From Comamonadaceae bacterium (GTDB taxonomy: Bacteria; Pseudomonadota; Gammaproteobacteria; Burkholderiales; Burkholderiaceae_C): DNA of 64,000 bases. Within the stretch, counting starts at the first letter, position 1. Every line of letters starts with the position of its first letter. The position numbers and the translations under genes were made by a program. The stretch is taken from positions 124,001 to 188,000 of the forward strand of contig CANFXC010000001.1 in assembly GCA_947450765.1 (NCBI GenBank). Reading direction: 5' to 3'. Below, one piece after another: positions 6,272 through 8,673 of the stretch. Under the pieces are notes generated by a model. It was not told where the DNA came from. It did no database searches and was given only the letters and a program-made list of their open reading frames with translations.

Positions 6272-6658
6272 CTATTTCACAGCAGGCGTTGCGCGCAAAG
6301 TGCAGCTGTCACCGATCGAGTCGCGCCAGACCCGCACCGACGACAACTGCGGCAAGCTTGGCTGCAAGGCGCGCCAAATAAAGGCGCACAAATTCTCCAG
6401 CGTCGCCGGGCCCAAGCCGGCCACATCGTCCAGCATGCGGTGGTCCAGCTGCGGCCGCAGTTGCTCAACCGCGAGGCGAACAAAACCGAGGTCGACCACC
6501 ATGCCAGTCACCGGGTCGGGCTGGCCCGACACCGTGGCTTCGGCGTAATAAGTGTGGCCGTGGATGCGGCGGCTGCTGTCGGCTTCAATCTCGCGATTCA
6601 GCGTGTGGGCAGCGTCAAAGAAAAACTTTTGGCTGATCTCGAAGTTGTCGTAGTTCAT
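6272..6658 (-). CDS. queD: 6-pyruvoyl tetrahydropterin synthase/QueD-family protein with altered active site
   Basis: The protein has 128 residues from MNYDNFEIS, chosen because ATGA at 6655-6658 overlaps the queE stop. QueD makes 6-carboxy-5,6,7,8-tetrahydropterin from dihydroneopterin triphosphate, the step before QueE in 7-deazaguanine synthesis. Zinc-ligand histidines are present (H18, then H33 and H35 in RIHGH). However, the catalytic Cys of the QueD motif CxxxHGH is Ser29 here (SRRIHGH), and the C-terminal catalytic Glu region reads VWRDSIG. Context still supports the QueD step. The symbol rests on position more than on active-site identity. Confidence 0.8.
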   Translation of the reverse strand: MNYDNFEISQKFFFDAAHTLNREIEADSSRRIHGHTYYAEATVSGQPDPVTGMVVDLGFVRLAVEQLRPQLDHRMLDDVAGLGPATLENLCAFIWRALQPSLPQLSSVRVWRDSIGDSCTLRATPAVK

Positions 6659-7290
6659 CGGATTCCCGTGATCTTGTGGGTCTGCAAACTCAGTCGCCAA
6701 GCTGGCCGCTGCTTGCACAGCGCAATGCAGTCCTGCAAGTTGTGATCCCGCAGAACGTTGTCCATGGGTTGTAAATAACGGTGCGTGAAATGCGCGGCTT
6801 CGAGTTCCGCCAAGTTGAGCAGAGGCTGTGGCCAGACAACTTTGAGCTCATGGCCTTCGCGCTGCAACCAAGCAGCGCCGGTCTTAGGACTGACGCAAAT
6901 CCAGTCGATGCCTGCGGGCGCGACCAGCGTGCCGTTGGTCTCCACAGCGATCTGAAAACCACGCGCGTGCAGCGCGGCAATCAGCGCGTCATCGACTTGC
7001 AGCAAGGGTTCACCGCCAGTCAGCACGACAAAACGGTGCGCGGTGTCGCTCGCCGGCCATTGCACTTCGATCTGTTGGGCCAGTGCATCAGCGGACGAAA
7101 ACTTGCCGCCCAGTGTGCCGTCGGTGCCGACAAAATCGGTGTCGCAAAACTGGCAAACCGCGGTCGATCGGTCTTGTTCGCGTCCTGTCCAAAGGTTGCA
7201 GCCAGCAAAACGGCAGAACACAGCCGGACGGCCTGCATTGGCGCCCTCGCCTTGCAAGGTGTAAAAAATTTCTTTGACCTGATAGCTCAT
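6655..7290 (-). CDS. queE: 7-carboxy-7-deazaguanine synthase
   Basis: The protein has 211 residues. It is a radical SAM enzyme that rearranges 6-carboxytetrahydropterin to 7-carboxy-7-deazaguanine for queuosine. The cluster cysteines are C31, C46 and C49, giving the long CX14CX2C spacing known from the Burkholderia enzyme instead of the usual CX3CX2C. FYTLQGEGANAGRPAVF is the substrate/SAM-region signature, and LTGGEPLLQ is the radical SAM GGE motif. It is translationally coupled to queD by ATGA. Its Shine-Dalgarno sequence is buried in a hairpin (see the leader entry). Confidence 0.93.
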   Translation of the reverse strand: MSYQVKEIFYTLQGEGANAGRPAVFCRFAGCNLWTGREQDRSTAVCQFCDTDFVGTDGTLGGKFSSADALAQQIEVQWPASDTAHRFVVLTGGEPLLQVDDALIAALHARGFQIAVETNGTLVAPAGIDWICVSPKTGAAWLQREGHELKVVWPQPLLNLAELEAAHFTHRYLQPMDNVLRDHNLQDCIALCKQRPAWRLSLQTHKITGIR

Positions 7291-7360
7291 ACGGCGCTCC
7301 GGATAACTGCCGGAGCCGTGAGGTTTTTATACATGGTAGTCCTCTACATGGCCCCGGTGA
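7291..7360 (-). promoter_or_regulatory. structured queE leader with Shine-Dalgarno-sequestering hairpin, candidate riboswitch
   Basis: On the minus strand, directly before the queE ATG, ACGGCTCCGG and CCGGAGCGCCGT form a 10-bp hairpin with a 2-nt bulge and a 7-nt loop. The only plausible ribosome site, GGAG six bases before ATG, lies in its 3' arm. Just upstream, CATGTAG AGGA CTACCATG forms a second hairpin. Its AGG loop can pair with CCT after the A-rich linker TATAAAAA, giving an H-type pseudoknot. A7-like linkers and compact pseudoknots occur in preQ1 riboswitches, but I cannot match it to a known preQ1 class. Confidence 0.45.
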
Positions 7361-7404
7361 AGCAAAAATCCTCAGCGCCGGGACGCCGCTAAGGGATTCG
7401 TATT

Positions 7405-8673
7405 CTAACGGTCAGGCGTCAACGCGGACACTGCATCTGGTTGCACCGGATAGACCCGCCGCATCCAGCCGAAAACGGCGGCACCGACCAACAAGCTGGC
7501 CATGGCGATCTGCAGCGACAAGCTAAAGGTCTCGCCGGGCGTGCGGTCGCCGTGCATCAAAAAGGCCACCATCGGCGGGCCCAGGATCTGCCCCACGCTG
7601 TAGGTGGCGGTCATCAAACCCATGAAACTGGCGGCAGCGGCGGGCCGCAGTCGACGCACTTCTTGCAACGCAAAAAACGTGTTTGCCGTGAACGGCAGGC
7701 CCAGCAACAAACTGCCCAAGGCAAAGCCGAGCAAGCTCGGGCTCCACAAACTGATGCCGATGCCAAACGCCTGAACCAGATAGCCGGACAGCAACAAGCC
7801 GCGGAAGTCGCTGCCTGGTCGGACGCGCGTGGCCAGCCAAGCGCCGGTCATCACGCCCGCGCCAAAGATCGGCCAAAACAGATCCAGCCAATGCGATCCC
7901 GGCAAGGCCGCGCGCGCAATCACCGGCAAAAAAGTCGCGGTGATGATGTAGCCAAAACCAGCGATGCCATAGCTCAGCGTGAGCCAGACCATTTCAAACG
8001 AACCGTGACCGACGTTGACTGCGGCTGACGGTTCGCCAGCCGCTTTTTTAACCAGCGGCAGCAAGCGTTCGTCGTGGCCGCTGAGGCGGGGCCAGACCAG
8101 CGCTGTCAGCACGCAGGCCAGCAGCCCAAAAATCAGCCAGCCGGTGGCGGCCGTCCATTGCCACGCCAACATGCCACTGGCAAACAGACCGCTGAGCACA
8201 ATGCCGGCCCCCGGCCCCATGTAAATAAAGCCGCCCATGCTGGGGAAGCCAAGCCTCGCCAGCTGCGACAAGCACCAGCCCGAAGTGAAGACAAACACCA
8301 CGCCGCTGGTGACGCCGGCCAGAAAACGCAGCAGCGGCCAAGCCGACGCATTCGAGCCCACCATCGCCAGCGTCAGCACCGCGGTCGTCAGCAAACCGCC
8401 GCGAATCAATTGCGTGAACGCCAGTGACGGCAGGCGCGGAAAACGCGCCCACAACCACGGCTGCGCCATGCACAGCAGCGCACCCACCAGATAGCCAAGG
8501 TAGTTGGCGCTGGCCAACCAACTGGCCGCCGGCAGATCGATCACGCCATCGTTCAACATCATCGGCAACAGCGGCGTGAAGGCAAAGCGGCCAATGCCCA
8601 TGGCCACGCCCAACGACACCATGCCCGCCAGCGCGATGGTCCAAGGGTTAGCGGAAAGTCGCAAAGCTTTCAT
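7405..8673 (-). CDS. MFS transporter, YbfB/YjiJ family
   Basis: The protein has 422 residues with about 12 hydrophobic segments. The N-terminus GMVSLGVAMGIGRFAFTPLLPMM is the hallmark of the YbfB/YjiJ group of major facilitator carriers. Substrates of this group are largely unknown. Its ATG lies inside the end of the adenine deaminase gene (26-bp overlap, different frame), so the two are co-transcribed and probably translationally coupled. This suggests export or uptake of a purine-related compound; that is inference only. Confidence 0.82.
   Translation of the reverse strand: MKALRLSANPWTIALAGMVSLGVAMGIGRFAFTPLLPMMLNDGVIDLPAASWLASANYLGYLVGALLCMAQPWLWARFPRLPSLAFTQLIRGGLLTTAVLTLAMVGSNASAWPLLRFLAGVTSGVVFVFTSGWCLSQLARLGFPSMGGFIYMGPGAGIVLSGLFASGMLAWQWTAATGWLIFGLLACVLTALVWPRLSGHDERLLPLVKKAAGEPSAAVNVGHGSFEMVWLTLSYGIAGFGYIITATFLPVIARAALPGSHWLDLFWPIFGAGVMTGAWLATRVRPGSDFRGLLLSGYLVQAFGIGISLWSPSLLGFALGSLLLGLPFTANTFFALQEVRRLRPAAAASFMGLMTATYSVGQILGPPMVAFLMHGDRTPGETFSLSLQIAMASLLVGAAVFGWMRRVYPVQPDAVSALTPDR

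Follow-up and report, generated by a model that had tools for sequence, protein, structure and literature searches.

Gene organization at the queE locus

The window analysed here, a stretch of 64,000 nucleotides from a Comamonadaceae bacterium (GenBank assembly GCA_947450765.1, contig CANFXC010000001.1, positions 124,001 to 188,000), carries on its minus strand queE, encoding 7-carboxy-7-deazaguanine synthase (6655–7290; TIGR04508, 340.9 bits, over the cut-off). The next gene in the operon encodes a queD-like PTPS protein (6272–6661, minus strand; PF01242), which scores 70.4 bits against the QueD cut-off of 89.25 bits (TIGR03367), so that its assignment as QueD rests partly on its position; it is followed by guaD. 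An MFS gene (PF06779), add, a gene for a BMP-family binding protein and ABC transporter genes lie 5' of queE. Comparison of leaders showed that a further gene, here called bmpQ, has been deleted in the window and in its closest relatives, where its first codons are left as a short upstream open reading frame (uORF). In four related loci (L010, L013, L015 and L016) bmpQ still lies directly 5' of queE, and the conserved block described below, found about 1.1 kb upstream of queE, is the start of bmpQ (MYKNL...).

The uORF of the window (MYKNLTAPAVIRSAV*; 7287–7334, minus strand) is thus the remnant of the bmpQ start, and its TGA stop codon overlaps the queE ATG (ATGA). In all 21 leaders in which the RNA element directly precedes queE, the AUG of the conserved block opens a reading frame of 15–50 codons. 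The overlap between its stop and the queE start is exactly 4 nt every time (ATGA or GTGA) and occurs in two frames, which points to translational coupling, with initiation at the uORF controlling queE. A riboswitch-like element would in this way outlive the deletion of its gene and capture the next one by stop–start coupling. Attenuation by a leader peptide was also considered and was dropped because the peptide is not kept across the two frames (MYKNL... versus MFKTS...).

A conserved RNA structure in the queE leader

The queE leader contains a structured RNA of about 75 nt (7394–7320, minus strand), in which the loop of a hairpin, P1, pairs with CCGGGGC to form a pseudoknot, P2, followed by a near-invariant block that holds a Shine–Dalgarno (SD) sequence, an AUG and an anti-SD, CCUC. 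The arms of P1 occupy positions 7394–7387 (CCTTAGCG) and 7377–7370 (CGCTGAGG), while P2 is formed by GTCCCGG in the P1 loop (7378–7384) and CCGGGGC directly 5' of the block (7357–7351), all on the minus strand. Among 31 homologues, changes on both sides were found in 9 of the 10 pairs of P1 and in 5 of the 7 pairs of P2; the covariation score was reached by none of 500 shuffles and was lost when the partners were slid by 1–3 columns. The 3' strand of P2 consists of the 5–7 nt right before CATG, and the helix takes such forms as GCTGCCG/CGGCAGC, GCCCGAT/ATCGGGC and ACCCC/GGGGT. When strands were swapped among 98 elements, the mean pairing was 3.3 bp, as against 5.2 bp for an element's own strands. 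In leaders that precede only queE, 7 of 8 P1 pairs covary, and P2 is paired in every cell (100 %), three of its pairs showing compensatory change; this indicates that the RNA is still under selection after the loss of bmpQ. The minimum free energy fold of the window leader on its own is not unusual (z −1.29) and favours other pairings, so that the reality of the element becomes visible by comparison only.

Just 5' of P1 lies a −10-like box, TAGAAT (7402–7407, minus strand), and TANAAT was found at this position in 73 of 98 homologous leaders, compared with 1.6 expected from shuffles, which places the probable transcription start at the 5' edge of P1. A scan of the window leader with the sigma-70 consensus returned no promoter at this box. 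Together with the ATTTTTG that follows it, P1 (7370–7394, minus strand) has the look of a weak intrinsic terminator for the MFS gene upstream, and it may serve both as terminator and as part of the leader structure. The window gives a weak match to a plain intrinsic terminator, but since a number of GC-rich homologues have a poor run of U residues, termination was not adopted as the mechanism. Two loci, L055 (1501–1605, minus strand) and L119 (7005–7165, minus strand), carry an additional hairpin within the linker that separates P1 from the 3' strand of P2, and the P2 complementarity is kept in both.

The ribosome-binding block and the proposed helix P4

The near-invariant block, CATGTAGAGGACTACCATGTATAAAAACCTC (7320–7350, minus strand), is almost identical letter by letter in the queE leaders of the source genus, and a pattern search allowing up to three mismatches found it in 90 of 251 genomes of the family, with no match to the reversed control pattern. 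It contains the SD of the uORF, originally that of bmpQ (GAGGA, 7340–7344, minus strand), whose GAGG would form the 5' strand of the proposed helix P4, and, 3' of an A-rich linker (7331–7324), the anti-SD CCTC (7320–7323, minus strand), its proposed 3' strand. GAGG and the CCTC located 17 nt downstream are both unbroken in 98 of 98 intact elements. The block is broken in two elements, L099 (4518–4596) and L113 (4269–4338); these are decayed, with 12-codon reading frames where bmpQ would be expected, and bmpQ looks pseudogene-like there, the SD block having decayed along with it.

At the bmpQ leucine codon that lies under CCTC (codon 5), all 81 of the 81 genes use CTC, whose share at their other positions is 28 %. 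This bias is overstated by the selection of the gene set by pattern and is matched by the covariance-model hits; AAA makes up 16 % of lysine codons elsewhere in bmpQ genes. A linker shortened by one base and a changed frame are seen in Malikia, Curvibacter and Macromonas, yet AAAACCTC is still present there, and its survival of the frame change indicates that the constraint acts on the RNA and not on the protein. Pairing of GAGG with CCUC would hide the SD; since these pairs never vary, closure of P4 is put forward here as a proposal. The P3/P4 region might form an H-type knot with an A-rich tail that pairs back to the loop, as in preQ1-I; its pairs are invariant in homologues, and hence give no covariation signal for either helix, and the inner hairpin pairs are broken.

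A first-pass annotation of positions 7291–7360 had described two hairpins and an AGG/CCT complementarity across the A-rich linker, and these are indeed present there on the minus strand. The 10-bp hairpin said to mask the queE SD (ACGGCUCCGG/CCGGAGC-G-CCGU with one bulged G; 7319–7291, enclosing GGAG at 7300–7297) exists in the window but is shared only with the sister locus L002, being absent from the other leaders of the source genus that were compared; it lies inside the uORF, and translating ribosomes would presumably open it. The second hairpin, with loop AGGA, folds as drawn in the window, but its inner pairs are not kept: the inner A–U pair is broken in 23 of 31 homologues and the next G–C pair in 8 of 31, with no compensation, while the outer CAUGU/A-CAUG pairs, which include the start codon, never vary and so leave no room for a covariation test. 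Covariation was accordingly absent from both named hairpins, and the helices that do covary, P1 and P2, lie mostly outside 7291–7360. It is the AGG/CCT complementarity that proved to be the conserved part, kept across frame shifts, and the broader idea of a conserved, pseudoknotted leader 5' of queE able to hide a ribosome site is borne out. The SD concerned, however, belongs to the upstream start codon (that of bmpQ or of the remnant uORF coupled to queE) and not to queE itself.

Distribution of the element and its usual target

A covariance model of the RNA, R1, was built and run on 301 genomes of the source's family, where it found the element in 139 genomes and in 73 of 141 genera. Within the order Burkholderiales a second family was found to have it, in two genomes, again in the arrangement RNA-bmpQ-guaD, and a sample of the class outside the source's family yielded nothing. 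The element always precedes either bmpQ or queE-queD and occurs once per genome, except in Curvibacter gracilis (G235; loci L102 and L133, G235 C6, and L128, G235 C1), where bmpQ and queE-queD, situated on different contigs, are each preceded by a copy. A gene-blind pattern scan of contigs returned nine loci, all 5' of queE-queD, although the pattern used was one base shorter and catches only the shortened queE-type elements, so that the result is not a census. One queE locus, L135, matches Malikia and Comamonadaceae while its record names a Chitinophaga pinensis metagenome-assembled genome; the bin is probably mislabelled or contaminated.

The usual target is therefore not queE, as the annotation had supposed, but bmpQ, which encodes an orphan substrate-binding protein of the BMP family (PF02608) and lies within a purine-uptake cluster, in many genomes together with the gene for BMPup, ABC genes, add and guaD. 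The product, BMPq, is a distinct paralogue of its cluster neighbour BMPup, in which the conserved site NTDS is replaced by H[TS][GA]S, and its nearest relatives of solved structure are 3s99 and 6pi5 (a Brucella basic membrane lipoprotein and an atrazine-pathway binding protein). Two bmpQ-like genes, L141 (G110) and L143 (G118), occur without the RNA; their upstream regions share another stretch, ATGAAGAGCGTCACTTCTAAAATACGCAG, which is perhaps an alternative start or leader.

Genomic clues to the ligand

Co-occurrence was assessed in 121 genomes, of which 56 carry the RNA and 22 a full-strength match to the preQ0/preQ1 transporter YhhQ. None of these 22 also carries the RNA (p = 2.7e-7, kinship ignored); the exclusion weakens to p = 6e-5 when weak YhhQ-like matches, found in five RNA-bearing genomes, are included. 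The gene queC is absent from 21 genomes, eight of which carry the RNA. These eight also lack queE and a strong YhhQ match but retain tgt, queA and a QueF match, the last being in five cases short and below the cut-off, as expected of unimodular QueF. Such a gene set would be expected to make them dependent on imported preQ0 or preQ1, and they look like queuosine-precursor salvagers. Judged by gene content, BMPq may import queuosine building blocks. On the other hand, the frequent position of bmpQ beside guaD and add makes a purine ligand a serious rival. For the annotation's suggestion of ligand control by preQ1 or a relative, the genomic data give separate hints, pointing to a precursor of queuosine as ligand.

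Relation to known RNA and transporter families

At the gathering score, Rfam 15 gave no relevant match in the window; a search of positions 7201–7480 with E up to 10 found neither RF00522 nor any other relevant family, and 12 homologous loci searched with E up to 1 gave no match to preQ1-I, II or III, in agreement with the earlier failure to place the leader in these classes. The element shares with translational riboswitches in general a conserved, covarying structure in the 5' leaders of metabolically related genes. Translational riboswitches of the SAM-II type combine a hairpin with a pseudoknot near the SD, as the new RNA does; here, however, the SD follows the pseudoknot on its 3' side, a second, putative pairing covers the SD, the genes are unrelated and no Rfam match was obtained.

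The preQ1-I class (RF00522) is similar in its small pseudoknot and A-rich linker, its nearest representative being type III, which regulates yhhQ in E. coli (PMC10622847). In that class the SD is paired in the last helix and a gene for queuosine-precursor uptake is regulated, a pairing and a role that the new RNA and its target would share. The new RNA differs in its reversed order, in which the SD comes first and the anti-SD follows on the 3' side, within the reading frame, in the extra covarying P1/P2 pseudoknot upstream, and in its target, a BMP-family protein or queE. The preQ1-II (RF01054) and preQ1-III classes are likewise multi-helix pseudoknots with SD-based control of queuosine-precursor genes, and their known members are found in Bacillota (PMC11625349), whereas the new RNA occurs in Burkholderiales and departs from them in helix order and conserved letters, with no Rfam match. 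YhhQ/QPTR (COG1738) and QueT are the only two known families of queuosine-precursor transporters, and BMP proteins do not appear among the other candidate families given (PMC11130926). BMPq would resemble YhhQ and QueT in its proposed role in salvage, for which gene content argues, but as an ABC substrate-binding protein it belongs to a separate protein family. In the open-access literature neither this RNA motif nor a BMP-type queuosine transporter was found described.

Proposed mechanism and alternative explanations

The element is almost certainly a real, conserved and structured cis-regulatory RNA; control is very probably exerted on translation through the SD, and the RNA is likely to sense a metabolite. 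That this metabolite is a 7-deazaguanine, as the genomic evidence hints, has chances approaching even. We tentatively regard the RNA as a new class of cis-acting translational switch, for which a preQ0 or preQ1 riboswitch is the leading candidate. The fuller reading, as a fourth, structurally distinct preQ0/preQ1 riboswitch class in Burkholderiales, associated with precursor uptake by a BMP-family ABC system and extended to queE through a leftover uORF, is more speculative still.

We infer the closure of P4, the direction of control and the ligand in the following scheme. The transcript would start at the 5' edge of P1, with P1 and the P2 pseudoknot serving as a scaffold. The invariant 3' block would then close, the SD GAGG pairing with CCUC a few codons into the frame, and initiation at the adjacent AUG would be switched off. 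An abundant precursor would bind and stabilise this closed form, so that less BMPq, and hence less precursor uptake, would result. In the window, where bmpQ has been lost, the closed form would lower translation of the uORF and, via the ATGA coupling, that of queE and queD, which act in precursor synthesis.

The main rival, which we consider less likely, is that the same RNA senses an ordinary purine base or nucleoside (guanine, xanthine, hypoxanthine or adenine) and that queE came under its control merely through the deletion of bmpQ. Such a ligand would suit the clustering of bmpQ with BMPup, ABC genes, add and guaD, which recurs in the second family, as well as the identity of the nearest solved relatives of BMPq; the position of bmpQ beside guaD and add and the two bmpQ genomes without the RNA were counted against a 7-deazaguanine switch. 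It fits poorly with the separate copy that Curvibacter gracilis has 5' of queE-queD and with the coupling maintained in every RNA-queE leader, and also with the YhhQ exclusion, the salvage genotype and the absence from BMPq of the NTDS aspartate that BMPup keeps.

Improbable, too, is recognition of the structured leader by a protein or small RNA instead of a metabolite, in the manner of repressor-type translational control. The very strong conservation around the SD and AUG would befit a protein site, but small translational riboswitches are typically built with a covarying pseudoknot immediately 5' of the SD (PMC11625349), and no dedicated regulator gene was recognised beside the RNA at the compared loci, with a limited reference set. 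Very little weight attaches to a constitutive translation enhancer or stabilising leader, in which P1 and P2 would protect the 5' end and place the SD: the apparent transcript start at P1, the strong SD and the A-rich early codons agree with it, whereas the invariant anti-SD CCUC, persisting across a frame change, is left unexplained. Chance hairpins devoid of function, for which the unremarkable fold energy of the window leader might speak, are contradicted by the covariation and the distribution and are hardly credible.

Whatever its ligand, this RNA family is new to Rfam 15, and nearly one in two of the genomes sampled from a large bacterial family carries it. Should the ligand be a 7-deazaguanine, the element would represent a fourth solution for sensing such compounds, and would suggest the missing queuosine-precursor transporter in tgt-containing genomes that lack both the synthesis genes and a strong YhhQ.

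Two further groups of genomes were noted in the survey of queuosine genes. Matches that score in two pieces mark a divergent YhhQ-like group, found in ten genomes (G042, G044, G063, G067, G094, G109, G112, G119, G126 and G156), five of which also carry the RNA. Three others (G050, G078 and G135) possess tgt and queA, with no queC, full queE, YhhQ match or RNA, and may use a further route of queuosine-precursor uptake (the G050 assembly is 89 % complete).
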